DNA of 64,000 bases from a virus, in the IMG/VR virus record IMGVR_UViG_3300021511_000003, positions 124,001 through 188,000 of that record; one strand, 5' to 3'. The position numbers and the translations under genes were made by a program. Numbering within the stretch: position 1 is the stretch's first letter; the number at the start of each line of letters is the position of its first letter. The notes below the pieces were generated by a model, which saw only the letters and a program-made list of their open reading frames with translations, had not been told where the DNA came from and made no database searches. Below, piece by piece: positions 17,362 to 64,000 of the stretch.

Positions 17362-17952
17362 ATGAGTGAATTTGTTATACCACCCAAACAAAAAAATGTT
17401 GTAATACTTTATAGCGGAGGAGCTGATAGTGTTCTAATGTTAAAACTCGCTCAAATGTCAAGTAGAAGTCCTCATTGTATTTTAATTGATTATGAACAAA
17501 AAAATATTGCTGAATTAGTTTTCGCCAAAAAACAATTAGATAAATGGGGAATTATACATCAAACAATCAAAATTGAAAATTTAAATGTTAATAGTGGACT
17601 AACCGGCGATTTAGTTGAATCACAATATAAAGATGTTCATGATATGCATGTTCCAGCAAGAAACACAATTTTTATTGCTCTTGCAATGAGTGTTGCTGAA
17701 AGTAAGAATATTGATGAAGTTTGGTATGGAGCGGATTATTCAGATCGTGAAAATTTATTTCCGGATTGTTACCAAGAATATGTTGTAAAAATGAATGAAA
17801 TGATGAAAGTTTCAGGACCAAAACCAATTAAATTAGTAGCTCCATTATTGGGTATGTCAAAAGAATTGATTCTTGAAATGCTTGATTGTTGTTGGGGTAT
17901 TGAAAATAACGATTTATATAGTGGTTATGAAGCACTCACAACATCTGAATAG
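17362..17952 (+). CDS. queC: 7-cyano-7-deazaguanine (preQ0) synthase QueC
   Basis: ATP-dependent conversion of 7-carboxy-7-deazaguanine plus ammonia to preQ0. LYSGGADSVLML is the PP-loop, VPARNTIFIALAMSVAE the conserved QueC block, and WYGADYSDRENLFPDC the next. The family's C-terminal CxxC zinc site appears reduced (LDCCWG only), so metal binding may differ. ATG at 17362 follows AAAGGAA. Stops with TAG. With queE and the dpdA-like gene it implies 7-deazaguanine modification of phage DNA. Confidence 0.9.
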   Translation: MSEFVIPPKQKNVVILYSGGADSVLMLKLAQMSSRSPHCILIDYEQKNIAELVFAKKQLDKWGIIHQTIKIENLNVNSGLTGDLVESQYKDVHDMHVPARNTIFIALAMSVAESKNIDEVWYGADYSDRENLFPDCYQEYVVKMNEMMKVSGPKPIKLVAPLLGMSKELILEMLDCCWGIENNDLYSGYEALTTSE

Positions 17953-18016
17953 AAACTAAGACTTATCATTATGATAATTGTTCTTACAAAGATTGAAAAA
18001 ATAAGGAGAGTAACTA

Positions 18017-18214
18017 ATGAATGCTAAATTTAATATTAATAAAGGTGTACAAACAGGAACGATCATTAAAGAAAATAATAAAACAGTTTGGGTTAAATTT
18101 AAATATAAAAAGAATATTGCCGAAAAAGGAGCTGAAGCTCTTTATAAAAAATTTACAACTGTTATTAAACGTCATAAAATTAAACATAATGTAGTAATGG
18201 AGGAAGGCATCTAA
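18017..18214 (+). CDS. Small hypothetical basic protein
   Basis: 65 residues, with a beta-rich middle (VQTGTIIKENNKTVWVKFKYK) that resembles small KOW/SH3-like barrels. Good AAGGAG. Overlaps the next start (TAATG). Function unknown. Confidence 0.6.
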   Translation: MNAKFNINKGVQTGTIIKENNKTVWVKFKYKKNIAEKGAEALYKKFTTVIKRHKIKHNVVMEEGI

Positions 18215-18555
18215 TGGATTTCAATGAATATCAAAGAGAATGTAGAAAAACAGATGTTGGTACTGCAGCACAAAATTGTTTGGAACCTGGTTGGTTATAT
18301 TATGCTCTTGGGATTTCTGGAGAAGCTGGTGAAATGACAGAAAAAATCAAGAAACTTTTTAGAGATAAAAATGGAATCGTTGATGGTGAATTCAGATTAC
18401 ATTTGGTTAAAGAAATTGGAGACCAAATGTGGTATCAAGCTAGATTGTTGGATCAATTTGATATTAAATATGAGGATGTTGCAAAACATAATGTTAAAAA
18501 ACTTTTAGATAGACTTAAAAGAAATAAACTACATGGGGATGGAGATGTGAGATAA
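18214..18555 (+). CDS. MazG-like nucleotide pyrophosphohydrolase
   Basis: GISGEAGEMTEKIKKLFRD gives the E-x-x-E helix and LVKEIGDQMWYQARLLDQF the E-x-x-D helix that bind magnesium in the all-alpha NTP-PPase family. 113 residues, usual for phage MazG-like enzymes. These hydrolyse (d)NTPs to monophosphates, cleaning or shaping the nucleotide pool, and can also lower ppGpp. Neighbours are queC and dCMP deaminase. Confidence 0.85.
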   Translation: MDFNEYQRECRKTDVGTAAQNCLEPGWLYYALGISGEAGEMTEKIKKLFRDKNGIVDGEFRLHLVKEIGDQMWYQARLLDQFDIKYEDVAKHNVKKLLDRLKRNKLHGDGDVR

Positions 18556-18557
18556 CG

Positions 18558-18686
18558 ATGAACTCTTTGAATATATATCACAATGTGAAATTAACTCCTC
18601 CTGAATTTGATGAGAATGCTGGTGATGGCAAATTTGATTTGATTTCATATATTACGGATAAACCTAAAAAATATATTTTTCACTGA
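18558..18686 (+). CDS. Short ORF, unknown
   Basis: 42 codons from ATG to TGA (MNSLNIYHNVKLTPPEFDEN...). The end FDLISYITD recurs in a decayed frame at 19540-19576 and at DNA level (catatattacggat), suggesting a local duplication. Weak ribosome site. May be a fragment. Confidence 0.35.
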   Translation: MNSLNIYHNVKLTPPEFDENAGDGKFDLISYITDKPKKYIFH

Positions 18687-18740
18687 ACATCCAGGGCTGG
18701 TAATATACAAGGTATAAATGGTGTATAGATTGGAGATAAT

Positions 18741-19307
18741 ATGAGAACAGGAATGAAATGGGATGAATGGTATCTTGAACTTTGTAAAGTAGTTGGAAAG
18801 AAAAGTCAATGTCTTTCAAGAAAAATTGGGGCAATTTTAGTAAGAGATCGGGCTATTATATCACAAGGTTATAATGGTCCTCCAAGGGGAGTACAAACTT
18901 GTGATAAACGATGGTTAACTGATAAAAAAATGCGACAAGTAGCAGGTTTCGAAAATAAAGAGTGTGAAAACGATGAAATGTATGAATTATATAAAAGTAA
19001 ATTAGAAGGAATATGCCCAAGATATATTTCTGAAATGGGATTCAAATCAGGTGAAGGTCTTGAATGGTGTGTTGCTGGACATGCGGAAAGAAATGCATTG
19101 ATCAATGCTGCAAGAGCAGGAATTAAAACAAAAGATGCTATTATGTATATGGATTGTAATGTTCCTTGTACACCATGTCTAGTTGAAATTATCAATGCTG
19201 GTATAAAAGAAATTGTTGTTGTTAAAATATCTTATTATGATATATCTGCTCAGTACATTTTACAAGAGAGTGGATTAAAAGTTCGTGTGTATGATCATTT
19301 GAAGTAA
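18741..19307 (+). CDS. dCMP deaminase
   Basis: Zinc-dependent deaminase giving dUMP for thymidylate synthesis. GHAERNALINAA supplies the zinc His and catalytic Glu, CNVPCTPC the two zinc Cys. The N-terminal QCLSRKIGAILVRD and GYNGPPRG blocks are typical of phage and bacterial dCMP deaminases. 188 residues with an insert before HAE. Acts upstream of the thymidylate synthase homologue at 61.5 kb. Confidence 0.9.
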   Translation: MRTGMKWDEWYLELCKVVGKKSQCLSRKIGAILVRDRAIISQGYNGPPRGVQTCDKRWLTDKKMRQVAGFENKECENDEMYELYKSKLEGICPRYISEMGFKSGEGLEWCVAGHAERNALINAARAGIKTKDAIMYMDCNVPCTPCLVEIINAGIKEIVVVKISYYDISAQYILQESGLKVRVYDHLK

Positions 19308-19308
19308 A

Positions 19309-19576
19309 ATATCATATGAAGAAATATATGAAAGAACAGGTATGAATTGTAGTTTAATTAGAAGAATTGAAGCAGCAGGGAATACCCAAGTTGCAATTGG
19401 TAATGTATTTGAAGTATGTTTTATTTTAGGAATTCTGTTGAAGGGGGTGTGATGAAAAACATATTTATAATTTATCAAAAATATTATTGTATATGAATAA
19501 ATTATTAACAGATAAAATATCAACTGAGAATATTTCATTTAATGATGATTTTAATACAACATATATTACGGATTAA
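19309..19576 (+). pseudogene. Broken XRE-type helix-turn-helix regulator
   Basis: No start codon is visible. One frame reads ISYEEIYERTGMNCSLIRRI and then EAAGNTQVAIGNVFEVCFIL, an XRE/HipB-like HTH, to TGA at 19450. A shift at the G5 run near 19443-19447 continues with GCDEKHIYNLSKILLYMNKL to a stop at 19574. Remaining DNA to 19683 shows no gene. Confidence 0.5.
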
Positions 19577-19683
19577 CGGTGTATTTGGTGGTTAATCCAC
19601 AACATATATTGTATTATTAATGATAGTTTAACTGATCATTAGAACGGTTTGTGATGTATTTAATTATCATTATGGGGGATACT

Positions 19684-20454
19684 GTGATAAAAAAAAGAAT
19701 GATATTGATATGTGGTCCATGTGTAATAGAAAATTTTGCATTTTTAGAGGCAGATGCTAATATTATAAAAAAAATAACTGATAGATACTCAGATATTGAT
19801 TTTTATTTTAAATCATCATGTGTTAAAGATAACAGATCTACATTACTAAATTACAGAGGACCTGGATTTGATGTGGGTATTGATTACTTACTCAAAATAA
19901 AATCTAAAGGAATTAAAATCACAAGTGATTTTCATAATATTGAGCAGATCAAACAGTATGGTCATTTAGTTGACCTCATTCAAATTCCTGCTTTTTTAGC
20001 TATGCAAACCAGTCTTATTAATGAAGCAGTTAAAATAAGAAAACCAATTCATATTAAAAAACCTCAATGGATGCCTCCATATGATGTGAAAAAGCCAATA
20101 TCTAAAGTATTAGAACAAAACAGTGTTGCAAAAGTTTTTATAACTGATAGAGGAACAACTTTTGGTTATGGAAATGTAATGTTCGATCCGAGACATATTA
20201 GAATGATGAAAAATAATGGAGCTAAAGTATTGGTTGATATAACACATCTTCAAAATCACTCTACCATATATGATCATACTTATGCTGAACAGGTTGGTAT
20301 GGCAGCAATCGCTGCTGGTGCTGATGGTTTATTTATGGAATCAACTTTTATTCCAAGAGATGCAAGATGTGATGCTGATGCTATGATATCCACAGGTGTT
20401 CTTTATCGTTATATAGATAAATTTATCAAATTATATAGGTTTATAAATGCTTAA
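19684..20454 (+). CDS. kdsA: 3-deoxy-8-phosphooctulonate synthase (KdsA)
   Basis: Condenses arabinose-5-phosphate with PEP to Kdo-8-phosphate. Visible family blocks: ICGPCVIE, KSSCVKDNRSTL with NYRGPG, DLIQIPAFLAMQTSLI, IHIKKPQWM, ITDRGTTFGYGN, VDITHLQNHS and AGADGLFMESTF. TIM-barrel length is complete (about 255 residues). Start is uncertain: GTG 19684 after GGGGGA is chosen, but ATG 19675 or GTG 19651 are possible. First gene of a Kdo module ending with kdsB. Confidence 0.88.
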   Translation: MIKKRMILICGPCVIENFAFLEADANIIKKITDRYSDIDFYFKSSCVKDNRSTLLNYRGPGFDVGIDYLLKIKSKGIKITSDFHNIEQIKQYGHLVDLIQIPAFLAMQTSLINEAVKIRKPIHIKKPQWMPPYDVKKPISKVLEQNSVAKVFITDRGTTFGYGNVMFDPRHIRMMKNNGAKVLVDITHLQNHSTIYDHTYAEQVGMAAIAAGADGLFMESTFIPRDARCDADAMISTGVLYRYIDKFIKLYRFINA

Positions 20455-21358
20455 TACAAATGAAGTAAGAATTGAAACTTGCACCAAGTGTAAATATTCA
20501 TGTATTTTTTGTCCATATTCTACTACCTTTAATAGAAAAAAGGAAGTTATGAGTTTGGATACATTCCATTTTATTGTTGATAAAATTAAAATAGAGTTGC
20601 CGAATATAACTGGTATAACAATTTCGGGATTTGGTGAATCATTCATTGATGATACTATATTAGAAAAAATTAAATATACAAGAGAACTTGGTTATAAAGT
20701 TTATATTGTAACTAATGGATATTTGTTATCACAAACTAAAATAAAATTTTTAAATGATATTGGTATTGAAAATTTAAGAATAAGTCTTCATTCGGTTGAA
20801 TCTGAAGCTTATAAAAAATTAACCGGTGTTACATCACAACACTTTAATCGTGTTATTAATAATATTCAAACTATAATTGAAAGAACAGATATACCTTTAA
20901 TTTTAACATTTGAAATTATTCCTGGTATTAATGATGATCAAATTGAAAAAATTAAAGAAATATATAACGATAGTGCTACTGTAGAAATTTGGAAACCTCA
21001 TAATTGGGTGTCATCTTATAAATATAGAAAAGGAGAAATAATAAAGAAAACTTGTAATAGACCATTCAACAGTCCATATCAGATTCAAGTAGATGGGACT
21101 GTTAATATGTGTTGCTTTGATTATAATGGTGAATTGTTATTGGGAAATTTTTTAAACCAAACAATGAAAGAAATCTTTACAGGTGATGTATATTTAGATT
21201 TAAAAGCACATCATAAAAATGGAACTTTGGATCAAACTGATTATATTTGTAAAAATTGTGATCAAAGAAAATCCCAGGATGATATTATTTTGTATAATAA
21301 TAAATTTACAAACAATTATAGAATAGGACGGACTTCAACAAATTATGCAAAAATCTGA
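20447..21358 (+). CDS. Radical SAM protein with SPASM-like C-terminus
   Basis: CKYSCIFC is the CxxxCxxC 4Fe-4S motif, ITISGFGESF the GGE-like strand, and YIVTNGYLL the next. The C-terminus has CNRPF, MCCFD, GNFLNQTMKEIF and CKNC, the Cys pattern of SPASM/twitch domains that carry extra clusters. Such enzymes modify peptides or sugars. Overlaps kdsA by 8 bases, so it probably works in the same sugar pathway; substrate unknown. Confidence 0.8.
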   Translation: MLNTNEVRIETCTKCKYSCIFCPYSTTFNRKKEVMSLDTFHFIVDKIKIELPNITGITISGFGESFIDDTILEKIKYTRELGYKVYIVTNGYLLSQTKIKFLNDIGIENLRISLHSVESEAYKKLTGVTSQHFNRVINNIQTIIERTDIPLILTFEIIPGINDDQIEKIKEIYNDSATVEIWKPHNWVSSYKYRKGEIIKKTCNRPFNSPYQIQVDGTVNMCCFDYNGELLLGNFLNQTMKEIFTGDVYLDLKAHHKNGTLDQTDYICKNCDQRKSQDDIILYNNKFTNNYRIGRTSTNYAKI

Positions 21359-22085
21359 TCAAAAACTTATTGTTATACATGGTTCTCATAATTGTGGAAA
21401 AACTATTTTATATAATTTATTTAAGAATGAAGGTGGATATATTTGTTTAGATTTGTATAAACCACATTATAAAGTATATGAACAACAATCTTTAGAACAA
21501 TTAGGTAAAAAAAATTATGAAAGATTAAAAAAATACATTCTATCTAATAATACTTCGTCGACTGTTGATTTGTGTAATGAAATTACTTTTATGATGAATC
21601 AATTTTCTGATTATGATTTTGTTATAAAACCTGGTATGTCATGGGCCAATTGGAATTATTTTATGGAATTTTCACCGGTTAAACTAGAAAATATTAAACA
21701 CTTTCATGTATTTAGACATCCAAAAATATGGTTGGCTACATGTTATAATAAGAAGTTAAATATAGAAGACTTTATTTTAAACGTCATTGGTAATTATCAA
21801 GATTATAAAGACTCACCGGAAACACATCATTTAATTAAAATTGAAGATATTAAATATAACAGTTTACTAAAAACATTACTTAAAAATACTAATTTAGATA
21901 ATTTATTACCTTATACTATTTTTGATTTGAATATATATCGCACTAATATATTTAACAGTTTTGATGATTTCAAAAACGATTTGAAAATTATTGAAATAAA
22001 GTTAAAAGAAGTATTACAATATTTAAAGTATGATATTGAAGATGTGAACACACTAATTTATTTAGAAAAATTATATAACTTATAG
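21345..22085 (+). CDS. P-loop protein, sulfotransferase/kinase-like, paralogue 1
   Basis: KLIVIHGSHNCGKTILYNLF is a P-loop. HFHVFRHPKIWLATCYNKK resembles the 3'-phosphate loop of sulfotransferases. 246 residues. Overlaps the radical SAM gene by 14 bases. Ends at TAG, and the next paralogue begins in the same reading frame four codons later. Confidence 0.55.
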   Translation: MQKSDQKLIVIHGSHNCGKTILYNLFKNEGGYICLDLYKPHYKVYEQQSLEQLGKKNYERLKKYILSNNTSSTVDLCNEITFMMNQFSDYDFVIKPGMSWANWNYFMEFSPVKLENIKHFHVFRHPKIWLATCYNKKLNIEDFILNVIGNYQDYKDSPETHHLIKIEDIKYNSLLKTLLKNTNLDNLLPYTIFDLNIYRTNIFNSFDDFKNDLKIIEIKLKEVLQYLKYDIEDVNTLIYLEKLYNL

Positions 22086-22097
22086 GAAAATTTTATT

Positions 22098-24198: not shown

Positions 24199-24584
24199 AA
24201 AATATTGGGATTGTTGGTACTCGAAGTAGAAATACATCAATGGTTCGTACATTAATCGAAAAAAAATTTTGGAAAATATACGAAGAAGGTGATTTTATTT
24301 GTTCTGGTGGGTGTCAAAAAGGTGCTGATAGGTTTGCTGAACAAATTGCAAAGAGTGAGGGTATTCCGATATTAATTATATATCCTAACTATAAAAAATT
24401 CAAGTTGGGAGCCCCAATTATTCGTAATGGTTCTATAGCAGAGAATTCAGATGTTGTAATTGCTTGTGTAAAAAGACCACAAGAAGGAATAGAAGAAGTA
24501 TTAAAAAGAAAAAAAGGTGGAACAGAAGATATGTTAAAAAAGTTTATTAAGATGAAACCACAAGGTCAAATATTTTTGGTTTAA
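24195..24584 (+). CDS. SLOG-fold protein (DUF2493-like)
   Basis: IGIVGTRSRN, then FICSGGCQKGADRFAEQIA and PIIRNGSIAENSDVVIACVK follow the YspA/DUF2493 branch of the SLOG superfamily, which binds nucleotides or nucleotide-derived ligands. 129 residues. Role in phages of this type is not established. Confidence 0.7.
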   Translation: MKNIGIVGTRSRNTSMVRTLIEKKFWKIYEEGDFICSGGCQKGADRFAEQIAKSEGIPILIIYPNYKKFKLGAPIIRNGSIAENSDVVIACVKRPQEGIEEVLKRKKGGTEDMLKKFIKMKPQGQIFLV

Positions 24585-24600
24585 GAACAAAATTTAAATA
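24581..24600 (+). promoter_or_regulatory. AGAACA-TATAAATA type promoter motif
   Basis: TTAAGAACAAAATTTAAATA, overlapping the preceding stop codon. Member of the family described at 12257. Confidence 0.5.
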
Positions 24601-35277: not shown

Positions 35278-36180
35278 TTATTCAGTTATTGTTCTTAATT
35301 TATTAATATACATTTCCATTTCATCAAGAACTGAATTGATTGAGATATTCGTTGTAATTGCATTTTTTAAAGAACCATAATGATGCTCGAGACATTGAAG
35401 AAGTAAAGATTTGATTTTATCTTCATCTGGAGAATGTTGTAATGAACTAAATGTATATAATGACTCAAGTTCTTTTTCTTTTATTTTAAAGTATTCAACT
35501 AATTGGTCTTGACTCCATTCACCACTTCTAATTGATTTTAACTGTTCTCTATTTCTTTCAAGATCAAGATTATGTTCAGTTAGTATTTGTTCTATTTCAT
35601 TTAATAAACGAACTACATGATATGCAAATTTTAAATCATATCCATATTTCTGAATCATATCATATCGTGAACTTCCAGGTTCAGGATTTTTAATTTTCAT
35701 TTTATGAAGTTGGCTATAAGCATACCCTTTAAATCTATACCATGCTCCTTTATGAAGAAACAATTTTCGGTTTTCTCTGACTAATTCACCTACAGCAGTA
35801 GAATGTAAAATACACCGTATAGGAACGAAAAGAGAGTCAATCATATTGGGATTATTTTGCATACACAATTGAAAATATTTAACAATTGAATATATAGTAA
35901 AATCATATTCTTTTTTAGCACTTATATCATTTACATGGTGTTGTTGCCATTGTTCAAATCTTTTATGTTGTTTTCCAAACCCTTGAATTATTCCATTTAA
36001 ATTAGGAAATACAACATGTTTTGGTGGAATACAAAATCCATAAATATCCATATCTGATGTATCAGATGAAACACCATAAGCAACAGACCCCATAATTACT
36101 TCATATTGTACATTGTTTTTTAGAAATCCAGGTGGTCGAATTAATTGCCTGGATGTTAGTCTATCAATAATTGATCCCAT
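35278..36180 (-). CDS. DNA polymerase beta-superfamily nucleotidyltransferase
   Basis: EVIMGSVAYGVSSDTSDMDI is the GS(x)xYG...SDxD motif of the YcgL/minimal nucleotidyltransferase group. The helical C-terminal half (KYGYDLKFAYHVVRLLNEIE) is also typical. 300 residues. Located next to the CCA-adding enzyme. Exact substrate unknown; RNA or protein nucleotidylation possible. Confidence 0.7.
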   Translation of the reverse strand: MGSIIDRLTSRQLIRPPGFLKNNVQYEVIMGSVAYGVSSDTSDMDIYGFCIPPKHVVFPNLNGIIQGFGKQHKRFEQWQQHHVNDISAKKEYDFTIYSIVKYFQLCMQNNPNMIDSLFVPIRCILHSTAVGELVRENRKLFLHKGAWYRFKGYAYSQLHKMKIKNPEPGSSRYDMIQKYGYDLKFAYHVVRLLNEIEQILTEHNLDLERNREQLKSIRSGEWSQDQLVEYFKIKEKELESLYTFSSLQHSPDEDKIKSLLLQCLEHHYGSLKNAITTNISINSVLDEMEMYINKLRTITE

Positions 36181-36213
36181 ATATATCACCTTTTATATCA
36201 TGACCTATATAAA

Positions 36214-37560
36214 TTAAATTTTTATTCTCTTTATAATTTTAATAAGGTCTTTTTTATTATTCACTATTGGATTTTCAATCACTGCATCAAGTAATATCTT
36301 GAGAATTTTACCAACGTTTGGTCCTGGTGGAATATTTATACATTCCATTACATCTTTACCATTAATTGCTAAATCTGTAACATTAAATTCTCCAGATAAG
36401 GTTATGTGCCTAGCTTCATAAATCATCATAACCATTTTTTTCAATTCTGTTTTTGAATAATCAGAAACTCCCAAATTTCCTTTTTTATCAGCTACTTTTA
36501 ATTTAAACCAATCTTTCCAATTGACCTTATGTTCAGAAAAGAGTCGTAGCATTCTTCTTACCCCTTTTCTTTTTATATCTTTTGATAAACTTCTCATATG
36601 AAATCTTGTTAGATCACTTACTCGTTTAATTTCATCTTTACTAAATACATATTTGTTCATCCACTCTTTAACAAGTCTTTGACCAATATCTTCATGATCA
36701 ACAAAATTTTCTTCGTTTGATTCTATCCATGCATCAGGTTTGCCAATATCATGAATATATCCTGTTAATCTTAATATAGGATCTTTTGGTGAAATATTAT
36801 CACCAACTAATTTAAAATGTGTACATAAAGTTTCATTGTGATATTTACCACCAGGAAACCCATATAGTCTATCAAGTTCAGGAAATATATTTTTTAATAA
36901 GCCTGTTTCATGTAATACATCGAAAAATATACTTGGTTTTTTGTATGGCATTGCTTTCATAAATTCAAGTCTTATTCTTTCCGGTGAAACTTTTAATATA
37001 AGATCGCAATTTTTTTTAATTGCTAAAAAGGTAGATTGATCTAAGGTTCCTTCAATCAGGCAAGTAAATCTTGCGGCACGGATCATTCTTAAATAGTCTT
37101 CATAAATTCGTTGTTCAGCATTTCCTACAAACCTTATAATTTTATTTTCAAGATCTTTTCTACCGTTGAATTTATCTATCACTTCACCAGTATAAGGACA
37201 TACTGCCATGGCGTTAAATGTAAAATCTCTACGCATTAAATCATCATCTAAAGTTTCGCACGCAGTAGTAATACAATTATGACGCCCAGGTTTCATATTT
37301 TTATCAGATCTATATGTTGAAACCTCAATACTATCTATTAATGTTACAAGAAAGCTTGCTCCTACAAGATCTACTTTACGATCAGGAAAGATATGTGCAA
37401 GATCATCGGGGGTTGCATCTGTAACAATATCATAATCATGAGGATCAAAATCTGCAAATATATCTCGTACTGCTCCTCCAACTAAATACGCACTCCAACC
37501 ACATTCACATATTCTTTGAATTAACTTATCACTTAATTCTTCTTCAGTATTGCTTTTCAT
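36214..37560 (-). CDS. cca: CCA-adding tRNA nucleotidyltransferase with HD domain
   Basis: SAYLVGGAVRDIF and HDYDIVTDATPDDL supply the class II nucleotidyltransferase active site; LMRRDFTFNAMAV, RIYEDYLRMIRAARF and SPERIRLEFMK are the neck and body motifs. LTGYIHDIGKPDAW is a following HD domain. 448 residues, full length. Would repair tRNA 3' ends and mature the two tRNAs here that lack an encoded CCA. Confidence 0.92.
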   Translation of the reverse strand: MKSNTEEELSDKLIQRICECGWSAYLVGGAVRDIFADFDPHDYDIVTDATPDDLAHIFPDRKVDLVGASFLVTLIDSIEVSTYRSDKNMKPGRHNCITTACETLDDDLMRRDFTFNAMAVCPYTGEVIDKFNGRKDLENKIIRFVGNAEQRIYEDYLRMIRAARFTCLIEGTLDQSTFLAIKKNCDLILKVSPERIRLEFMKAMPYKKPSIFFDVLHETGLLKNIFPELDRLYGFPGGKYHNETLCTHFKLVGDNISPKDPILRLTGYIHDIGKPDAWIESNEENFVDHEDIGQRLVKEWMNKYVFSKDEIKRVSDLTRFHMRSLSKDIKRKGVRRMLRLFSEHKVNWKDWFKLKVADKKGNLGVSDYSKTELKKMVMMIYEARHITLSGEFNVTDLAINGKDVMECINIPPGPNVGKILKILLDAVIENPIVNNKKDLIKIIKRIKI

Positions 37561-43084: not shown

Positions 43085-43470
43085 TGGTGGACCAGCTGGG
43101 AGTCGAACCCAGTTCCGCAAAAATTCAAATTAAGTATCTACACTCATAGTCAACTTTTAGATTTAGTTACCCCCACGTTCAAACACGGAGTTGACATAAC
43201 AACGGAGCCAACGGTGTACATTTGCTGGTAAGTTTGAAAATAAGAATGCCAGTTTGCAGTACCATTGCCCATTCTTATTTCGATCTCTTTACGTCGATGC
43301 CCCATCCCAATTCAAGAGAATAATTGGGTGGAACAGATTAAGCAGCTTTTGCGAAATCGGTGTAATAATCGTCTGCAATTATTGTTAGTGATAATGTTTT
43401 TACGGAGTAACATATCATTCTCCGGAGTGCAACTTTTTTTTCTTTTCCACGTCGAAACCTTTTCTGGCCC
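43085..43470 (-). ncRNA. ssrA: tmRNA (ssrA), tag ADDYYTDFAKAA
   Basis: 5' end GGGCCAGAAAAGGTTTCGAC matches the tmRNA consensus; 3' end has the T-arm TGGGTTCGACTCCCA and CTGGTCC-A-CCA, pairing with GGGCCAG including a G3-U70 pair needed for alanylation. The tag frame (43376-43338) starts at GCA and reads ADDYYTDFAKAA, then TAA. Adds a degradation tag to proteins on stalled ribosomes. Single-piece form, in a phage tRNA island beside a YqeY-like gene. Confidence 0.93.
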
Positions 43471-52038: not shown

Positions 52039-52058
52039 TATTTTAATTATGTTCTAAG
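52039..52058 (-). promoter_or_regulatory. AGAACA promoter motif
   Basis: Minus strand CTTAGAACATAATTAAAATA, overlapping the pncB stop and 10 bases before tRNA-Pro. Confidence 0.4.
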
Positions 52059-53209
52059 TTAAATACGGTTTTTAAGTAAGAAACGAACTGCTTATTTTCA
52101 CACATACCTTTACCAGGGGAATTTGAAATTTTTGCTACAGGTTGACCATTACATTTGGTCATTTTGATTACCATATTGAGAGCAGGATTGGAAAAATTAT
52201 TTGTTAGTTTTGTTCCGATACCAAAAGAAACTCCAATATGCATGTTAAGTGCATTGTAAATTTCTTTTGCTTTTTCAAAATCTAATCCATTGCTAAAAAC
52301 AATGGTTTTTGTCAACGGTTCAATTCCTCTATTTTTATAGAATTTAACCATACGAAAACCAAACTGAATAGGGTCAGGTTCGGAATCCTCACGAACACCA
52401 TCAAATAGTTTATACAATAATGGATCGTCAAAATCATGTAAGAAAGCATCTGTATTAATAACATCGGACAATGCTATTCCTAGATCGCCACGATATACTT
52501 TTATCCAATTTTCAAAAGCCATTTTTTGACTGAGATCTAATCTATATTCAAGTTGTTGATGTGCTTGCAACCATTCATGAGCCATAGTACCGATTGGTTT
52601 TACATTGTACTTCATAGCCAATAATAAATTACTAGTGCCAATAAAATTATTGGTTGCATAGTTTTTACAATATTTTACAACTTTAGAATGCCATCTATAA
52701 CTTCTTCTTCTTCTGGTACCAAAGTCTGCAAACTTCAATCCTTCTGGTAAATAATAAAGATTTTCACTCAGTCTCATCTCGGCATCTTTGTAATTGGATA
52801 TACTAAGATTACAAAATATTTCACTAATAATAGACATTAAAGGAACTTCAAAAAGAATAGTTTGAAACCAAGGTCCTTTGATATCAATATTCAGTTCACC
52901 AGTATTTGTATTAATTGATGTTTTAACTAAATCTGTATTAAATTTATATTGTTTTAAAAACTCAATATATTCTTCACTAAAAAAACGGAGACTTCTTAAA
53001 TAATCAAGTTCATCTCTATGAAAATATAGACTGCGTAAGGCATCAATATTAAGTTCAATATCTTGTATTGACTTTTTAAAATTTACACCTTCATAATTTC
53101 TACATTTGAATTTATATTCAACTGGAGTTGCTGCATAACCTAATTTTAATACTGCCTGTTGCATAGTAAATTTATACTGGTCATTATCAAGTAAACTATT
53201 CTGAATCAT
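52043..53209 (-). CDS. pncB: Nicotinate phosphoribosyltransferase
   Basis: Makes nicotinate mononucleotide for NAD synthesis. SLLDNDQYKFTMQQAVLKLG at the start, FADFGTRRRRSY, FIGTSNLLLAMKYNVKPIGT, MAHEWLQAHQQLE with the catalytic His, VYRGDLGIALSDVINTDAFL, and SFGIGTKLTNNF define the family. About 388 residues, full length. ATG 53209 follows AAAGGAG; the longer frame upstream is leader RNA. Suggests the phage restores NAD, perhaps after host NAD-depleting defence (inference). Confidence 0.9.
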   Translation of the reverse strand: MIQNSLLDNDQYKFTMQQAVLKLGYAATPVEYKFKCRNYEGVNFKKSIQDIELNIDALRSLYFHRDELDYLRSLRFFSEEYIEFLKQYKFNTDLVKTSINTNTGELNIDIKGPWFQTILFEVPLMSIISEIFCNLSISNYKDAEMRLSENLYYLPEGLKFADFGTRRRRSYRWHSKVVKYCKNYATNNFIGTSNLLLAMKYNVKPIGTMAHEWLQAHQQLEYRLDLSQKMAFENWIKVYRGDLGIALSDVINTDAFLHDFDDPLLYKLFDGVREDSEPDPIQFGFRMVKFYKNRGIEPLTKTIVFSNGLDFEKAKEIYNALNMHIGVSFGIGTKLTNNFSNPALNMVIKMTKCNGQPVAKISNSPGKGMCENKQFVSYLKTVFNLEHN

Positions 53210-53411
53210 TGTTTCTCCTTTGTTATAGTTAAATAAGAAAATATAGAGAATGGATTCTATTCCGGTTCGCCAATTAGCCACCGGGGAAAATCCAGCTGGA
53301 AGCCTCAATCGTTTTGGGAGGCAACGGGTAAATATGTAGCTATTTTGTTAGTGTCACATAACGTTAGTTCATCTTGATATTCTGGTGGAACACCCCATAT
53401 TAATTACTTAA
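53210..53411 (-). promoter_or_regulatory. Structured 5' leader of pncB
   Basis: On the minus strand, ahead of pncB: GCCTC/GAGGC hairpin (53302-53322), CCAGCTGG palindrome (53292-53299), and CCGGT/ACCGG hairpin (53262-53284). Resembles a riboswitch-type leader in layout; no known class could be matched by eye. Confidence 0.4.
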
Positions 53412-56652: not shown

Positions 56653-59600
56653 TTGTTTTCAATAAAAAATTCGTTTTCGAATTGTTCAATATGCGATTTA
56701 CTTGAAGAAGGTTCTTGTATACTTGAAACAAATTGCAAAGGAGATTTGAAAAAGGTCGATGTTATTTTTGTTGCAGAAAATCCTGGTAAAGAAGAAGTAA
56801 AAATTGGAAGACCTCTTATAGGAAAAGCAGGTAAAAAATTCCGACAGTATTTTAATAAATTCGGAATCAATAAAATGAACTATTTATTAACAAATGTTGT
56901 TATGTGTCAAACAATTAATGAGGATGGAACAACTGGGAATCCAACTCAAGAAACAATTGAATTATGTAAAAATAATTGCATGGAAATAATAAGAAATTGT
57001 AATCCAAAGCTTATTGTTTTAATGGGTACAAGTCCAATGTCTGCCTTTGGTATTGCAAAAGTGGGTATTACAAATATTCATGAAAGATATGAATTGTTTG
57101 AGTGGGAAGGGTTTAAAACGATGGTTATTGTTCATCCTTCTTTTGTAAATAGAAATCAATCATGGGATGGTAAATTTTCAGAAGCAATGTCTCGAATTGC
57201 TGAAATACTTGGTGGAAAATATGTTAAAATGCCAAAGAAAAGCCAAACCAAAACATTAGGTAAAGGTATATTCAGATATAGTATTCCAAAGAAATTTTAT
57301 ACAAATGATTATAGACTTATTGATGTTCAATTTTTAAATAGAACAAGTCAGGTTTTATATATTTTTAGGGATAAAGATAATAATAAAATTTTTCATAAAG
57401 AAAATGATGATCATGTATGTTATCAAGCTCCAAAGGATGTTGAAGCAAGAAAAATTGTTCCATATAGCAAGTTAGATAAAGTTATGATTAAGTATAGAGA
57501 TAGATATAATTTGGATCCGAATATTACATATGAGGGTGATGTTAGATTAGCATCTAAACATGCTATGGATTATTACTATAACAATAAAGGTGAATGTCCT
57601 AAGACTACATCAAATATTATGTTTTTTGATATTGAGATTGACACTGGAAATGAAAGAGTTTTTCCAAAACCGGAAGATGCAGCATTCCCAATCAATCTGA
57701 TAACAACAATTTATAATGGTACCACAATTTGTTATGGAGTTGATAATAAAACAGAAGAAATAAAACGACGTCCTGATATAACTTATAAAATATTTAATAA
57801 TGAAAAGCAGTTGATGTGTTCATTTATTAAGGATTATAAGAAAACTGATCCAGATTTTTTAGCAGGGTGGAATAGTATTAGCTTTGATTTGGCATATATT
57901 TATAATAGATTGCCACAGATCGGAATCCCTCAAACAAGTATGAATAAATTTGGGGAATTTTATGTTGAAGGTGCAAAATTTGTTTGTCATATCCCTGGTA
58001 CAGTTCCAATAGATCAATATTTTTTGTATCGTACATTTACATTTACAAACATGGAAAATTATAAATTAGGGTTTATTGCTCAACATGAATTGGGTATAAC
58101 AAAAATTGAATTACCATTACCAATAAATGAAATGTACTGGAAAATGCAAAGTTTGACATATGAATATAATATTCGAGATAGTGAATTGTTGGAAAAGCTT
58201 GATGATAAACTGGGTCATATTAATCTATTAAATGAACTAAGAATTATTTGTAATACTAATTTTGAAGCAACTTCATCATTCGGTCAAATTGATTCATTAA
58301 TGGTATCATATCTTAGGAACAAAGGTATAGCATCAAAAAATAGTGACCCACATATTATAAAAGAACGTTATCCAGGAGCATATGTACATCAACCAATTCC
58401 TGGTGTATATGATTGGATTACAGATTTCGATTTTACATCTCTGTATCCAAGTCTAATAATTACTTATAATATCGGTGTTAATAGTTTTGTTATGAAAACG
58501 AAAGATCCGCATATTGGTTACGATCTTGTATATGATAAAAAGAATGTTCCTGATGAAATTGAAATGATTATTGATCCATTATATAAAGCGAAGTCAGTTA
58601 AAATGTCATACAAGAAATTGTATGAAAACGTACAAAAAGATGATTTGATTCATACAATCAATGGTTGCTTTTTTCAACCACATAAAAAGGTATTATCTGT
58701 TTTCGGAGAAGTTGTTGACATGTTAATGGTCTCACGAAAAGAATATAAAGAAAAAATGTTTGATGCAATTGAAGCTAAAGATAAAGATTTAGAAAAGTTT
58801 TATTATACACGGCAGTTAGTATATAAAGTTCTAGCAAATACATTATATGGAGTTGTTGCAAATAAAGCATTTAGATTCTTTAATATTTCTTTAGCATCAG
58901 CTATTACACTTGCTGGTCAAGAAGTAATAAAAACATCAATTATTGAAGGCGATGCTTTTATGAGGCACCTTAATACAGGTAAACCTTATATATCACCAGC
59001 AAAACTTACAAAAAGAGAAATGTTTAGTGATGCAATGCCAGATAGAGGCAATGAATATATTCTTACAGGTGATACAGATTCAATATTTTGTTGTTTTGAG
59101 AAATTCAATGATGTATCAGTTGATAACATTCGTAGTTGGTGTAAAGAGATTGAATTATTTTTAAATGAAGATAAAATTCTTGATGTTGTAAAAAGACATA
59201 ATTGTGATCTTGATTTTAATAGAATGAAACTTAAAAATGAGTTGATTATTTCTCGTGGTTTATTTCTTGCAAAAAAGAGATATGCTATTCGTGTAATTAA
59301 TAATGAAGGAAAAGATGTTGATAAAATAAATTATATGGGCGTTGAAATTAAGAGATCAGATTATCCAAGTAAATCAAAAGAATTTTTATCCACATTATCA
59401 GAGTTAATTTTGAAATCTGAAAAAGTTTCAATAGGTCAATTAATGAAATTTATTAATCGTCAAGAGAATGAATTTCTTGAATCTATTTATAAGGGAGAAA
59501 AAGTTATTGCTCGACCTGTGTCATATGGTAAATTATTAAAGGATTATAAAAATATCCCTCAAGGAGTAAGGGCTATGGAAGCGTGGAATAAAATAATGTA

Positions 59601-59877
59601 TAATGTTCATAAAACAGGTAATAGAGCATATATGTATTGGGTTCAGGGTATTGATCTTGAAATAGCTCCTAAAGATGTAAGAGAAAAATATCATCAATAT
59701 GTAAAAGATGGAAATAAATTGGAAGTAATTGCAATACCAGATGAAGAAAAGAGGTTACCAAAATTCTTTATTCCAAATAAACAAGCAGCATTAAAATTTA
59801 CATTTAAAGATAGATATGAACTAATGTTGAAACCATTAGAGTTGAAAGTAAAAAAGCAGGAAGTTCTTACTTTCTAA
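56653..59877 (+). CDS. Family 4-type uracil-DNA glycosylase fused to family B DNA polymerase
   Basis: Residues 1-200 resemble the 4Fe-4S uracil-DNA glycosylase: NCSICD, VIFVAENPGKEEVKIGRPLI then GKAGK, YLLTNVVMCQ, and MVIVHPSF. From about 320, family B exonuclease motifs MFFDIEIDTG, AGWNSISFDLAYIYNRL and YNIRDSE, then polymerase motifs DFDFTSLYPSLIITYN, KVLANTLYGVVANKAF and TGDTDSIF. 1074 residues, TTG start 7 bases after GGAGG. Proofreading site intact. The fusion could couple uracil removal to replication. Confidence 0.88.
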   Translation: MFSIKNSFSNCSICDLLEEGSCILETNCKGDLKKVDVIFVAENPGKEEVKIGRPLIGKAGKKFRQYFNKFGINKMNYLLTNVVMCQTINEDGTTGNPTQETIELCKNNCMEIIRNCNPKLIVLMGTSPMSAFGIAKVGITNIHERYELFEWEGFKTMVIVHPSFVNRNQSWDGKFSEAMSRIAEILGGKYVKMPKKSQTKTLGKGIFRYSIPKKFYTNDYRLIDVQFLNRTSQVLYIFRDKDNNKIFHKENDDHVCYQAPKDVEARKIVPYSKLDKVMIKYRDRYNLDPNITYEGDVRLASKHAMDYYYNNKGECPKTTSNIMFFDIEIDTGNERVFPKPEDAAFPINLITTIYNGTTICYGVDNKTEEIKRRPDITYKIFNNEKQLMCSFIKDYKKTDPDFLAGWNSISFDLAYIYNRLPQIGIPQTSMNKFGEFYVEGAKFVCHIPGTVPIDQYFLYRTFTFTNMENYKLGFIAQHELGITKIELPLPINEMYWKMQSLTYEYNIRDSELLEKLDDKLGHINLLNELRIICNTNFEATSSFGQIDSLMVSYLRNKGIASKNSDPHIIKERYPGAYVHQPIPGVYDWITDFDFTSLYPSLIITYNIGVNSFVMKTKDPHIGYDLVYDKKNVPDEIEMIIDPLYKAKSVKMSYKKLYENVQKDDLIHTINGCFFQPHKKVLSVFGEVVDMLMVSRKEYKEKMFDAIEAKDKDLEKFYYTRQLVYKVLANTLYGVVANKAFRFFNISLASAITLAGQEVIKTSIIEGDAFMRHLNTGKPYISPAKLTKREMFSDAMPDRGNEYILTGDTDSIFCCFEKFNDVSVDNIRSWCKEIELFLNEDKILDVVKRHNCDLDFNRMKLKNELIISRGLFLAKKRYAIRVINNEGKDVDKINYMGVEIKRSDYPSKSKEFLSTLSELILKSEKVSIGQLMKFINRQENEFLESIYKGEKVIARPVSYGKLLKDYKNIPQGVRAMEAWNKIMYNVHKTGNRAYMYWVQGIDLEIAPKDVREKYHQYVKDGNKLEVIAIPDEEKRLPKFFIPNKQAALKFTFKDRYELMLKPLELKVKKQEVLTF

Positions 59878-59897
59878 TTAGAACATAACATTAAATA
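59877..59897 (+). promoter_or_regulatory. AGAACA promoter motif
   Basis: ATTAGAACATAACATTAAAT, right after the polymerase stop, one base longer in its spacing than other copies. Confidence 0.4.
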
Positions 59898-59983
59898 TGT
59901 GGGACATGTGATTGCAAACACTTTTCTTGCCCTATCAAGAATTACCACATATTTATATCTAATATCTATAGGGAGATATCAAA

Positions 59984-60152
59984 ATGTCAAATCAATTATA
60001 TAAGTATGGATGCAGAAAGGAAGTAAATTTAAACTTAAGAATGGTGTTGTTCTGAAAAACATACTCACTGTCCAGCTTTTCAATCAAATGTAACATATGC
60101 TAAAAAAGTAATTACACAACATAAATGTTCATATGGGAAAAGATTTGTATAA
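59984..60152 (+). pseudogene. Remnant of the zinc-knuckle endonuclease family
   Basis: Shifted frames with YKYGCRKE, FKLKNGVV and CSEKHTHCPAFQ follow the N-terminal knuckle of the HNH gene at 1480 (CDYGCGREA, FKNGKWCCSK, CPKM). No HNH domain remains. Confidence 0.5.
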
Positions 60153-60187
60153 AAAGAATACAAAATTTTGTAGAAAGGAAAAAAAGA

Positions 60188-60847
60188 ATGAAAGAAAAGA
60201 CTGTTAAATTAATTGAATGTTTTAACACATATCAAGGTGAAGGACCAGATAGTGGTCAGGCAATGGTTATATTAAGATTTAAAACATGTAATTTAAAATG
60301 TCCTTGGTGTGATACTTCTGTTAAAATGAGAATAAGTATGGAGGCTGAATATGAATTGAGTAAAATTCAAAAAGAAATTTATAATAATCGCCTGGGTATT
60401 CTTATTACAGGTGGTGAACCAACAGTATCAAGACACATTAATGAAACATTATGGTTATTGAATGAATTGGATTATCCAATTGCCAATGTTGAATCAAATG
60501 GATTCAATCTTGAAGAAGTGATAGAACGAACCGATCCTTTGAAAAATGTTCGTTATATGTTCTCGCCTAAAATCTTTTCAGAAAAAGATCTTGGTTCTGC
60601 AAAAGCTAAAACAAGATCCCTCATAGAATATTCAAATTTATATATCAAAGTTGTTTACGAAAATAATGATCTTATATCTAACTATCTTGAGTGGCTTTCA
60701 CCTCAAGCTGCAAATAAAGTTTGGTTGATGCCAGAAGGTGTTAATAGAAGCGATTTAATCAGGAATTCTGAAAGTGTATTTGATGCGTGTGAAAAATATA
60801 AGTTTAATTTTTCATCGCGTAATCATTTAATATTTGGTTTTGTATAA
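60188..60847 (+). CDS. queE: 7-carboxy-7-deazaguanine synthase QueE
   Basis: Radical SAM enzyme turning 6-carboxytetrahydropterin into 7-carboxy-7-deazaguanine, the QueC substrate. IECFNTYQGEGPDSG, then CNLKCPWCD with the CxxxCxxC set, ILITGGEPTVSRH, NVESNG, and KVVYENND blocks match. 220 residues. ATG 60188 after AAAGGAA. QueD and FolE are not in the window. Confidence 0.9.
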   Translation: MKEKTVKLIECFNTYQGEGPDSGQAMVILRFKTCNLKCPWCDTSVKMRISMEAEYELSKIQKEIYNNRLGILITGGEPTVSRHINETLWLLNELDYPIANVESNGFNLEEVIERTDPLKNVRYMFSPKIFSEKDLGSAKAKTRSLIEYSNLYIKVVYENNDLISNYLEWLSPQAANKVWLMPEGVNRSDLIRNSESVFDACEKYKFNFSSRNHLIFGFV

Positions 60848-60855
60848 GGAAGGAG

Positions 60856-61245
60856 GTGAATACCATCAACGTAACTAGTTATTATAAACATTTTAAACCA
60901 GAAGAACAAAGCGGAATGTGTGTAGTTCGTCGAAGAGGTGAAAAAGACGAAGACTTTATTAAAAGATTTCGTAAAAAAATTTCTAAAAGTGGGGTCGCAA
61001 AAGAGTTTCGTGACCGAATGTATTTTGAGAAACCAAGTGATAAAAAAAGACGTAAGAAAGCTCAATCAATTAGATTGATAAAGCGTGATGCAGAAAAGGC
61101 TGAAAAAATGAATGAGCGTTATATACGCATGAAAGCTAAACAAAAACGTAAGAGAGAAAAAGAAAACTTATTAAAAGGAGAACGACATGATAGAAGCAGT
61201 AGCAGACAAAATCGTAGTCGAATATCTAAGACAGACAGTGAGTGA
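60856..61245 (+). CDS. Ribosomal protein bS21 homologue
   Basis: VVRRRGEKDEDFIKRFRKKI, SKSGVAKEFRDRMYFEKPSD and KKRRKKA follow bS21 (RRF(K/R)R...G...R...FYEKP...KR). A long Lys/Arg tail follows. The GTG at 60856 lies inside the perfect AAGGAGGTGA ribosome site; the ATC at 60865 is at the ideal spacing, so a rare ATC start is possible. The 3' end overlaps the GroES-like gene by 59 bases. May reprogramme host ribosome initiation. Confidence 0.8.
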   Translation: MNTINVTSYYKHFKPEEQSGMCVVRRRGEKDEDFIKRFRKKISKSGVAKEFRDRMYFEKPSDKKRRKKAQSIRLIKRDAEKAEKMNERYIRMKAKQKRKREKENLLKGERHDRSSSRQNRSRISKTDSE

Positions 61246-61546
61246 AGCAGGAATTCTAATTCCTGAAATGGCCCAGGATCCACAGGGTTATGGTAAGGTT
61301 TTATCAGTTGGAGATTTGGTAAAAGATACTCCAATTGAAAAAGACGATATACTTATTTTTCACACAAGGGCAGGTATGGATTTTATTCAAGATAGAAAAG
61401 TAATGAAGTGTCTGAAATATGAAGAAGTTTATGGTATTGTTAGAGATGAAAAATTATCAAAGAGACTTCAACCTTTAGAATTTAAATCCAAAGAACAATC
61501 TAAAATCATTCAGCCTTCGAAAGGGGGTGGTATAGTTGTCGCTTAA
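61187..61546 (+). CDS. GroES-like cochaperonin
   Basis: EAVADKIVVEYLRQTVSEAG, ILIPEM, GYGKVLSVGDLVKDTPIEKD and DDILIFHTRAGMDFI run parallel to GroES from strand 1 through the base (V.vG.G....G....vk.GD.vlf). 119 residues, similar to phage gp31-like cochaperonins. Would pair with host GroEL to fold capsid protein. AAAGGAG 5 bases before ATG. Confidence 0.78.
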   Translation: MIEAVADKIVVEYLRQTVSEAGILIPEMAQDPQGYGKVLSVGDLVKDTPIEKDDILIFHTRAGMDFIQDRKVMKCLKYEEVYGIVRDEKLSKRLQPLEFKSKEQSKIIQPSKGGGIVVA

Positions 61547-62339
61547 TTTACAATATATTAAAGCAACTAATCTTGATGATGCATGGCACCAAACATTATT
61601 TAAAATGCTTGAAGAAGGTAGTGTATTTAAAATTGATCGTGGTTCATATGCAGGACAAAAACGATTGGAATTTGACTGGATTACATGTCATATTAAAAAT
61701 CCAGGTGTTCGTCCATTACTGCCACAAATTCCAGACTCATATGGAGTTCCTAATCCTGTAGCAGAGGATTATTTGGATGATTATCTTCCTTATTTAATGA
61801 CTGCAGAATTGAAAGACGATGAGTCATATACTTATGGTCAACGTCTTAGTGGGTACCCAATTAAATATCCTTTATATTTATCAAAGGAAGGGCATTGGCC
61901 AAACATTCTTATTAAAGAAACTGATGAATTAATTGAAAAAGGTATTATTTATTCTACTGGCCAGTGGCATTTGAATCAAATTGAGCTTCTTATTTGGACG
62001 TACAAAAATAAGGGATTCAGAAATAATCAGATGGTATTACAAGTAGCACATCCAACCGATATGTTGCTTCAAGATCCTCCATGTTTGAGAAGTATTGATA
62101 CAAGGATTCAAGATGGAAAACTTCATTTCTATCCTTATTTTAGATCTTGGGATCTATGGGGTGGATTCCCTGCTAATTTAGGGGGTATTCAATTACTTAA
62201 GGAATATGTTTCAAGTGAGATTGGTGTTGATGATGGAGAAATTATTGCTACAAGTAAGGGAATGCATATTTATGATTATTCTTTTGACCTTGCAAAGTGC
62301 TTGAGAATGCGGGATGATATAAAATTAAAAGGGGAATAA
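61536..62339 (+). CDS. Archaeal-type thymidylate synthase homologue
   Basis: PPCLRSIDTRIQDGKLHFYP, YFRSWDLWGGFPANLGGIQL and SKGMHIYDYSFDLAK are the Cys-nucleophile, folate/nucleotide and C-terminal motifs of the archaeal-type branch. LNQIELLIWTYKNKGFRNNQ and VAHPTDMLL also present. 267 residues. TTG start overlaps GroES. Could be dUMP methylation or dCMP hydroxymethylation; only sequence comparison against both would decide. Confidence 0.75.
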   Translation: MSLNLQYIKATNLDDAWHQTLFKMLEEGSVFKIDRGSYAGQKRLEFDWITCHIKNPGVRPLLPQIPDSYGVPNPVAEDYLDDYLPYLMTAELKDDESYTYGQRLSGYPIKYPLYLSKEGHWPNILIKETDELIEKGIIYSTGQWHLNQIELLIWTYKNKGFRNNQMVLQVAHPTDMLLQDPPCLRSIDTRIQDGKLHFYPYFRSWDLWGGFPANLGGIQLLKEYVSSEIGVDDGEIIATSKGMHIYDYSFDLAKCLRMRDDIKLKGE

Positions 62340-62342
62340 TAT

Positions 62343-62873
62343 ATGTCAACTGTTGTTGGTATTGTTAATAATGGTAAGGTCTGGATGGGTGCAGATAGTT
62401 TTGCAACAACAATTGATGGTGAACGTAGGCGAACTGTTTGTAACAAATTATTTATAAATGGACCATATCTTTTCGGTCATACTGGTAGTGTAAGACCTGG
62501 TCAAGTTTTAAGACGACAATTTTTTACACCACCGAAAAATGTGTTAGAATTACCAGACTGTATTCGTGACCATTTAAAAAAAAAGGAGTGTCTTATAATT
62601 AATCCTGATACTCAAACTCAGTTGTTAGAGGGCAATTTTTTGATTGCAACTAATCATGGGAAATTGTATGAATTTCTTTCTGATTTTCAAATGAATGAAG
62701 TTATAGATCATACTGCAATTGGATCTGGTGCACCCTTTTCTTTGGGTTCATTATATACAACCAGGAAAGTTTATAACAATACTCATAGACTTAAAGTAGC
62801 GCTTCATGCTGCTGCGGTATATGATCTTCATACAGGACCACCATTTATTATCAAAGAATTTCTTGAAGATTAA
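62343..62873 (+). CDS. HslV/proteasome-like Ntn hydrolase
   Basis: STVVGIVNNGKVWMGADSFA has Thr one residue into the chain, as after Met removal with Ser/Thr nucleophile strand. KLFINGPYLFGHTGS and AIGSGAPFSLGSLYTT match HslV/beta-subunit strands. 176 residues, same as HslV. No ATPase partner in the window. May degrade host or phage proteins. Confidence 0.75.
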   Translation: MSTVVGIVNNGKVWMGADSFATTIDGERRRTVCNKLFINGPYLFGHTGSVRPGQVLRRQFFTPPKNVLELPDCIRDHLKKKECLIINPDTQTQLLEGNFLIATNHGKLYEFLSDFQMNEVIDHTAIGSGAPFSLGSLYTTRKVYNNTHRLKVALHAAAVYDLHTGPPFIIKEFLED

Positions 62874-62891
62874 AAATATATTTGGCTATAC

Positions 62892-62932
62892 ATCATTGAG
62901 TAGAAAATATTTAACTGGTTCTACTCAATGAT
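62892..62932. terminator. 14-bp hairpin after the HslV-like gene
   Basis: ATCATTGAGTAGAA pairs perfectly with TTCTACTCAATGAT over a 13-base loop. No strong T-tract after it. Confidence 0.6.
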
Positions 62933-62990
62933 TACTTCCAACTGTATGTGTTATAGGAAACTGTGAAAATATAGGATATTATGTATAACA

Positions 62991-63010
62991 TTAAGAACAA
63001 AGAATAAATA
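62991..63010 (+). promoter_or_regulatory. AGAACA-TATAAATA promoter motif
   Basis: TTAAGAACAAAGAATAAATA, 25 bases before the dpdA-like gene. Confidence 0.5.
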
Positions 63011-63034
63011 CAAACCAATACATTGGGGGGAATG

Positions 63035-64000
63035 ATGGCTAGAAGTGGTTACGTTTTAGCGGGTTTCGAAACATTAGCAACAATATTGAAATTATTTACC
63101 GACGGTAAACGCGGGAGATGGAATGATAACTTTACAAAAGAAAGCGTCTCTAATTTTTTATCTGAGACATGTTCTGGGTTTTTACATTCATATGGTCAAA
63201 ATTTTCCAAACAAAAAGAAATATGATACATATAATTTAACTGAAGCAAATATGTTTAAAAAGTGTAGAGATTGGGGATTTTTTGATAAATGTAATTTTAT
63301 TGTTGATAGTGGTGGTTTTCAAATTTCAACAGGTAGATTAACAAGACGAGAATCTGATTTACTTTTTCATATGTATTATGAATTTTTAGAAGAGTATCAT
63401 GAAGTATATAATAGAGCTTTTATTTTAGATATCCCGCCAGGACCTGGTTGTGAAATATTTCATAATTTTGATGATGTATATAAACAAAATCTTGATTCAT
63501 ATGAAATAGCAAGAAACATGCCTGAGCATGTAAAGAAAAAAATAATTTATATTCACCATTTTAGAACTCCCAAATTATGGGAAATATATACAAAAATTTT
63601 AAAAGATGGTGAGATGTTTCCAGAATTTGAATATCACGGTACAGGTGGTATTGTAGCAAATATGTCAAGTGATATGTCAATACCGTGTATCATTTATGTC
63701 CTTCCTTTAATACCTCTTATTAATCAAGCAATTAAATATGGTAGAAATTATCTTAATTTTCATGTATTGGGTGGTGCAAATTTTAGAGATGTTTTATTTT
63801 ATGAACTATTTAGAATTACAATGAAAAAGAAACATAATTTTGATTTGAATATGACTTATGATTCATCTGGACCTTATAAACAGGTAATGCACGCTCGCTT
63901 TTTACATGCTAAAGATGATAACGGTTATATAAGAAAAATGAGTATTAAACCAAATGATATGGACAAGAGATTTTGGGATGGACGAACAGTTGAACAACAT
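63035..64000 (+). CDS. dpdA: DpdA-like DNA-guanine transglycosylase (partial)
   Basis: FIVDSGGFQISTG is the TGT-family DSGGFQ motif. AFILDIPPGPG, YIHHFRTPKLWEIY and NFHVLGGANFRDVLFYELFR then TYDSSGPYKQ continue as in DpdA/TGT relatives. DpdA exchanges guanine in DNA for a 7-deazaguanine. 322 residues seen; the 3' end is outside the window. ATG 63035 after GGGGGG; ATG 63032 is possible. Confidence 0.75.
   Translation, partial: MARSGYVLAGFETLATILKLFTDGKRGRWNDNFTKESVSNFLSETCSGFLHSYGQNFPNKKKYDTYNLTEANMFKKCRDWGFFDKCNFIVDSGGFQISTGRLTRRESDLLFHMYYEFLEEYHEVYNRAFILDIPPGPGCEIFHNFDDVYKQNLDSYEIARNMPEHVKKKIIYIHHFRTPKLWEIYTKILKDGEMFPEFEYHGTGGIVANMSSDMSIPCIIYVLPLIPLINQAIKYGRNYLNFHVLGGANFRDVLFYELFRITMKKKHNFDLNMTYDSSGPYKQVMHARFLHAKDDNGYIRKMSIKPNDMDKRFWDGRTVEQH

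Follow-up and report, generated by a model that had tools for sequence, protein, structure and literature searches.

DNA 7-deazaguanine modification has several branches; dDG, dCDG and related ones exist and lie outside the comparison made here. The closest described systems are those of Escherichia phage CAjan and Mycobacterium phage Rosebush, which encode FolE, QueD, QueE, QueC and DpdA, lack QueF and GATase_6, and carry dPreQ0 in their DNA; the base guards against restriction, and in CAjan dpdA is essential (PMC6884629). The defining trait of the dPreQ0 group, group 2 of the phage 7-deazaguanine modifications (Hutinet 2019), is virion dPreQ0 that depends on dpdA. How does the present locus compare? 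The window, a stretch of 64,000 nucleotides, covers bases 124001-188000 of a 223,015 bp record of an uncultured virus (G000). The whole record encodes five enzymes of such a pathway, dispersed across 157 kb and not organized in an operon (window coordinates, except where G000 is given):

G000:31007-31894, minus strand: FolE2-type GTP cyclohydrolase (PF02649, E 5.6e-59)
G000:53505-53939, minus strand: QueD (PF01242, E 1.6e-28)
17362..17952, plus strand: QueC-like ATP-dependent CDG ligase, 196 aa, of a zinc-site-less subfamily (PF06508, E 3e-29)
60188..60847, plus strand: QueE-like radical SAM enzyme, 7-carboxy-7-deazaguanine synthase (phrog_2076 "QueE-like", E 4e-33)
63035..64000, plus strand: DpdA-like DNA transglycosylase, N-terminal part in the window, start set from relatives

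With FolE2 replacing FolE, the FolE2, QueD, QueE and QueC-like genes make the route from GTP to preQ0 complete in gene content. Across the 223 kb record, FolE1, QueF, GATase_6 and the Pfam TGT model (PF01702) found no match. The first-pass annotation, which proposed queC, queE and a DSGGFQ-motif transglycosylase from the letters of the window, holds up on all three genes: the Pfam QueC and phrog_2076 matches establish the first two, alignment with relatives returns the transglycosylase start at 63035 exactly, and the QueC-like, QueE and DpdA-like identifications are not chance. It had also seen neither QueF nor an amidotransferase, and the entire record likewise gives no QueF or GATase_6 match; it had left FolE and QueD to the rest of the genome or the host; the genome search it proposed for folE, queD and queF located FolE2 and QueD in the same record and found neither FolE1 nor QueF.

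Like CAjan and Rosebush, this virus has all five steps, no QueF or GATase_6, and a DpdA gene beside DNA replication genes. Unlike them, it uses FolE2 in place of FolE and a QueC without a zinc site, its DpdA-like protein is ~150 aa longer and escapes tblastn, and its genes lie scattered across 157 kb of a large genome. The system is of a known kind; its new parts are the DpdA family, the zinc-less QueC and FolE2, a type that isolate phages almost never carry (50,697 records gave three matches, all distant). In this large uncultured phage and its relatives, three or more of the five pathway enzymes are thus of an unusual type. A search of the PMC literature, with subscription papers outside its reach, returned no description of this gene set.

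The QueC-like protein matches phrog_1550 (E 4.5e-32) as well as Pfam QueC; its open reading frame spans 17323-17952, and 17362 is the better start. It keeps the QueC motifs (PMC13329287) SGGxDS, YxQxHxxE (with H changed to N), VPxRN, YPDC (as FPDC, with Y changed to F) and the SCY tyrosine. In E. coli QueC, Y35, R99 and Y189 are essential, their alanine mutants being inactive, and Y131F is partly active (PMC13329287); the equivalents of the first three are retained here and that of Y131 is Phe. What is missing is the zinc site, described as a hallmark of canonical QueC and as needed for its function (PMC13329287). All eight compared QueCs, canonical or fused, end in a Ser/Thr-Cys-aromatic triplet, mostly SCY, followed by CGxCxxC, whereas the window protein ends in SGY and lacks the cysteine cluster, as do three proteins from DpdA-bearing records. 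A scan for relatives, keyed to N-terminal and central peptides with the C-terminus left out of the key, yielded 31 viral loci (24 distinct proteins). The zinc site C(x)8CxxCxxC is absent from the window protein and from all 31 of these, none of which has even a CxxC; VPxRN is kept in 31, Y-x-Q...E in 30, FPDC in 25, and SGGxDS in 30, the remaining one being cut off. Because the zinc site is absent, we file the protein as QueC-like rather than as QueC. Against the canonical enzymes of E. coli and B. subtilis, then, it shares SGGxDS, Y-x-Q...E, VPxRN, aromatic-PDC and the C-terminal S-x-Y tyrosine but has lost the four zinc cysteines (SCY has become SGY, and no CxxCxxC follows), and family members are shorter, at 178-221 aa versus ~231. 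Judged by sequence, the active site seems to have been kept while the zinc site has gone.

In a tree, a 100/100 branch sets the short QueC-like proteins apart from the canonical ones, the exception being a single very long, misplaced branch (Moby); the zinc site was likely, if not provably, lost once. Two other explanations of the ending were considered and rejected. A frameshift or split gene does not account for it: the next downstream open reading frames carry no cysteine cluster, and unrelated contigs end alike. Nor would read-through of TAG by the CTA-anticodon tRNA restore the cluster; TAG is an ordinary stop, used by 6 of 63 genes. A further gene of nucleotide metabolism lies close to QueC:

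18741..19307, plus strand: dCMP deaminase-like protein (PF00383, E 3e-18)

Inspection of the translations by eye likewise places a dCMP-deaminase-like frame next to QueC in two other contigs, L053 and L054.

In QueE the CX3CX2C cluster motif is intact (CNLKCPWC), and its profile matches a solved QueE structure, 6nhl (E 1e-24). It adjoins DpdA in all close relatives, and both genes belong to a conserved replication block with the following further members in the window:

56653..59877, plus strand: DNA polymerase B with an N-terminal uracil-DNA-glycosylase-superfamily domain (PF00136, E 1e-33; PF03167 UDG, E 3.5e-18), the left border of the block
60856..61245, plus strand: ribosomal protein bS21-like (PF01165, E 4e-11)
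61187..61546, plus strand: GroES-like co-chaperonin (PF00166, E 2e-9)
61536..62339, plus strand: thymidylate-synthase-like protein (PF00303, E 9e-10; phrog_160)
62343..62873, plus strand: HslV-family Ntn-hydrolase-like protein (phrog_1040, E 9e-17)

The gene order is polB, QueE, bS21, GroES, thymidylate-synthase-like, HslV-like, DpdA and DnaB helicase. As far as the contigs extend, relatives keep the order polB-QueE-DpdA-DnaB, the most distant one excepted: QueE and DpdA lie together beside polB in 13 of 14 further loci and in six more, with DnaB next where the contig reaches it. This setting in a replication block fits DNA as the target.

The last 441 bases of the DpdA-like gene lie beyond the window, up to G000:188441 (window-equivalent 64441); the complete gene encodes 468 aa. 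By sequence the protein is nearly invisible. Its sole library match is phrog_887 (queuine tRNA-ribosyltransferase; E 1.6e-6, ~105 residues around DSGG); tblastn found nothing in 50,697 phage records, the Pfam TGT model (PF01702) does not match it, sequence-profile searches of the PDB returned no match, and the first scans of viral contigs with the DpdA-like and QueC sequences found no relatives, so that profiles were needed. Structure is more informative. A model built from six relatives (pLDDT 78, pTM 0.81) was used, one from four sequences being too poor (pLDDT 55). The best 50 solved structures listed for it are all TGTs (Z 17.9-18.9, ~310 residues, rmsd ~4), and Foldseek returned the TGT 2ash (E 8e-4) among other barrels and, in a viral library, the DpdA2 of Vibrio phage nt-1 (E 9e-8). 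At the level of the predicted model, this settles the fold as the TGT (beta/alpha)8 barrel.

The motifs of the protein are DSGGFQ, LDxPPG, HxLGG and YDSS. The catalytic aspartates D92 (DSGG) and D277 (D-[CS]) are invariant in 17 of 17 family members, none of which has the CxCxxC zinc-binding motif of tRNA TGTs; in an alignment with eight DpdA and seven DpdA2 proteins, D92 (DSGG), D133, H244 (HxLG) and D277 (YDSS) are kept. Profile comparisons give weak matches: for the DpdA type named after phage 9g, hhalign of the 17 members against eight DpdAs reaches E 1.1e-4 over 211 columns, and comparison with DpdA2 gives E 1.6e-4, with a probability of 50-56% across DpdA and DpdA2. The protein resembles DpdA2 of Vibrio phages nt-1 and KVP40 in length (~460 aa), in DSGG, H-x-L-G and YDSS, and in the structural match (E 9e-8), and in Stenotrophomonas phage Moby DpdA2 sits beside QueE and DnaB, as the DpdA-like gene does here. 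It differs in having DSGGFQ and LDxPPG where DpdA2 has DSGGLQ and FDEIP, and in its C-terminal region; the window protein matches neither phrog_10773 (DpdA2) nor, by BLAST, nt-1 DpdA2, and one relative (L014) matches phrog_10773 marginally (E 0.002). We read the DpdA-like proteins as a third, BLAST-invisible family of phage DpdA. As the family is unseen in isolate phages, no function can be transferred to it by close homology. One phage contig carries two tandem genes of this family (L049:6491-7984 and 8129-9535), for which a division of labor is possible.

Profile searches found DpdA-like relatives in ~25 IMG/VR contigs and in two archaeal MAGs. Among the 14 contigs fetched with the short QueC, eight have the DpdA family (5/5 of those of at least 140 kb) and ten have QueD (4/4 of those of at least 200 kb). 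FolE2, at 55-63% identity, and QueE occur in three of the four contigs of at least 200 kb (G015, G017 and G019), two of these three being near copies: G017 and G019 are apparently near-duplicates, as is G018, and the trio is counted as one lineage. The full gene set is present in G002 (185 kb), whose QueC has three of the four zinc cysteines. The 312 kb G001 (L046) has kept QueE and DpdA and shows no QueC, QueD or FolE2 match; thus not every relative needs a preQ0 pathway of its own, and a modification in G001, if there is one, would depend on its host or make use of CDG. Since the other contigs are mostly fragments, a gene missing from them is uninformative.

Contigs of the phage clade are also binned in archaeal MAGs (L034, L035, L056, L061 and L067, in Heimdallarchaeota bin51 and Thermoplasmatales CSMAG_1140), which is probably contamination. 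An archaeal host was considered and rejected: bS21 and GroES in the replication block, like the tmRNA in the window, are bacterial features. In a separate observation, the neighbor of FolE2 (L036; G000:29.6-33.4 kb) is part of an RNA polymerase beta subunit (PF00562, E 2e-47; PF04560), and the pair is nearly adjacent in the MAG contig L067 as well.

What would these enzymes do together? We consider it probable that the phage's own enzymes convert GTP into a 7-deazaguanine, which then takes the place of guanine in the phage DNA. What the sequences show is the gene set, how it is conserved, the TGT fold and the aligned motifs; from these we infer the enzymatic steps, that DNA is the target, which base it receives and in what sequence context, and protection. 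FolE2 would convert GTP to dihydroneopterin triphosphate, QueD would produce CPH4, and QueE CDG; the short, zinc-less QueC may then amidate CDG and most likely dehydrate the product to preQ0, or else stop at ADG; finally, the DpdA-like enzyme would form a covalent bond via Asp277, release guanine from DNA and insert the base. The likely purpose would be protection from host restriction or another DNA-sensing defense. Several observations count against this reading: the QueC-like protein has no zinc site, the profile similarity to DpdA and DpdA2 is weak, the genes are scattered with no operon, and G001 keeps QueE and DpdA with no match to QueC, QueD or FolE2.

Which base ends up in the DNA depends above all on QueC. 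The gene content, equal to that of CAjan and Rosebush, supports a dPreQ0-type reading, and we lean toward dPreQ0, if only slightly. The first-pass annotation had named preQ0 as the simplest predicted base; that prediction agrees with the dPreQ0 phages in gene content and, since the QueC-like protein lacks the canonical zinc site, stands as the leading option only. A zinc-less QueC might instead stop at the amide, or be no preQ0 synthase at all, leaving dADG or dCDG in the DNA rather than dPreQ0, a tentative and less likely alternative. ADG is the first intermediate of QueC (PMC13329287), the viral relatives retrieved have all lost their C-terminal zinc site completely, dADG has been found in the DNA of phages MED16 and 7-11 and of Campylobacter phages (PMC8306585, PMC6884629), and the 312 kb relative has QueE and DpdA with no QueC match. 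Against a stalled enzyme speak the retained Y35, R99 and Y189, together with a Phe at Y131, a change that leaves partial activity (PMC13329287), and the full-set relative G002, which runs the same pathway with a near-canonical QueC. Some other base is unlikely. A bolder proposal is rather doubtful: that the QueC without zinc forms a new class of enzyme, adapted to another end product, and that together with the third DpdA family it equips a widespread clade of large uncultured phages with a DNA base that is not preQ0, whether dADG, dCDG or an N-substituted CDG amide made with an amine other than ammonia.

Two further readings take the enzymes away from DNA. The genes might serve tRNA, supplying more preQ0 or preQ1 for queuosine in host or phage tRNAs, with the TGT-fold protein acting on RNA; a role of this kind has been suggested for phages without DpdA (PMC6884629). 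The window does have a rich tRNA region, with 23 tRNA genes and a tmRNA at 32688-53308, and of the four tRNAs that take queuosine, three are among them: His(GTG), Asn(GTT) and Asp(GTC); other features here include a CCA-adding-enzyme-like gene:

35281-36189: RlaP-like RNA repair protein
36217-37560: CCA-adding enzyme
43085-43470, minus strand: tmRNA, tag ADDYYTDFAKAA
44062-44133, minus strand: tRNA with a CTA anticodon (called Pyl)
52046-53308: nicotinate phosphoribosyltransferase

However, no QueF match was found, DpdA and QueE sit in the DNA replication block, and the viral fold matches include nt-1 DpdA2, a DNA-type enzyme. A tRNA-type TGT was one of the outcomes that the initial annotation saw as fatal to its proposal, and the sequence points away from it: the DpdA-like protein has neither a PF01702 match nor the zinc-binding CxCx2C of tRNA TGTs. 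We regard a tRNA role as quite unlikely. Still less probable, to the point of being far-fetched, is that the QueC-like/TGT-like pair deazaguanylates a protein, as Cap9 and Cap10 do in type IV CBASS, or blocks such a defense. The resemblance is that of a short QueC-family protein (Cap9, ~185 aa) and a remodeled TGT-family protein (Cap10) acting on 7-deazaguanines (PMC13329287, PMC11996544). Yet Cap9 keeps the four-cysteine zinc motif (PMC13329287) that the QueC-like protein lacks; the partners here are 46 kb apart, in a setting of replication and nucleotide metabolism, with no CD-NTase-like neighbor seen; and PADLOC gives a generic QueC match only, leaving the TGT-like protein unmatched.

Modification of the phage's own DNA is the preferred reading. 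The zinc-less QueC subfamily, with its catalytic residues mostly kept, offers a natural test of the need for the QueC zinc site. The record shows phage use of FolE2, which only the three distant matches among isolate records resemble. Together, these genes would extend DNA 7-deazaguanine modification to a clade of large uncultured phages that searches with known DpdA proteins have missed.
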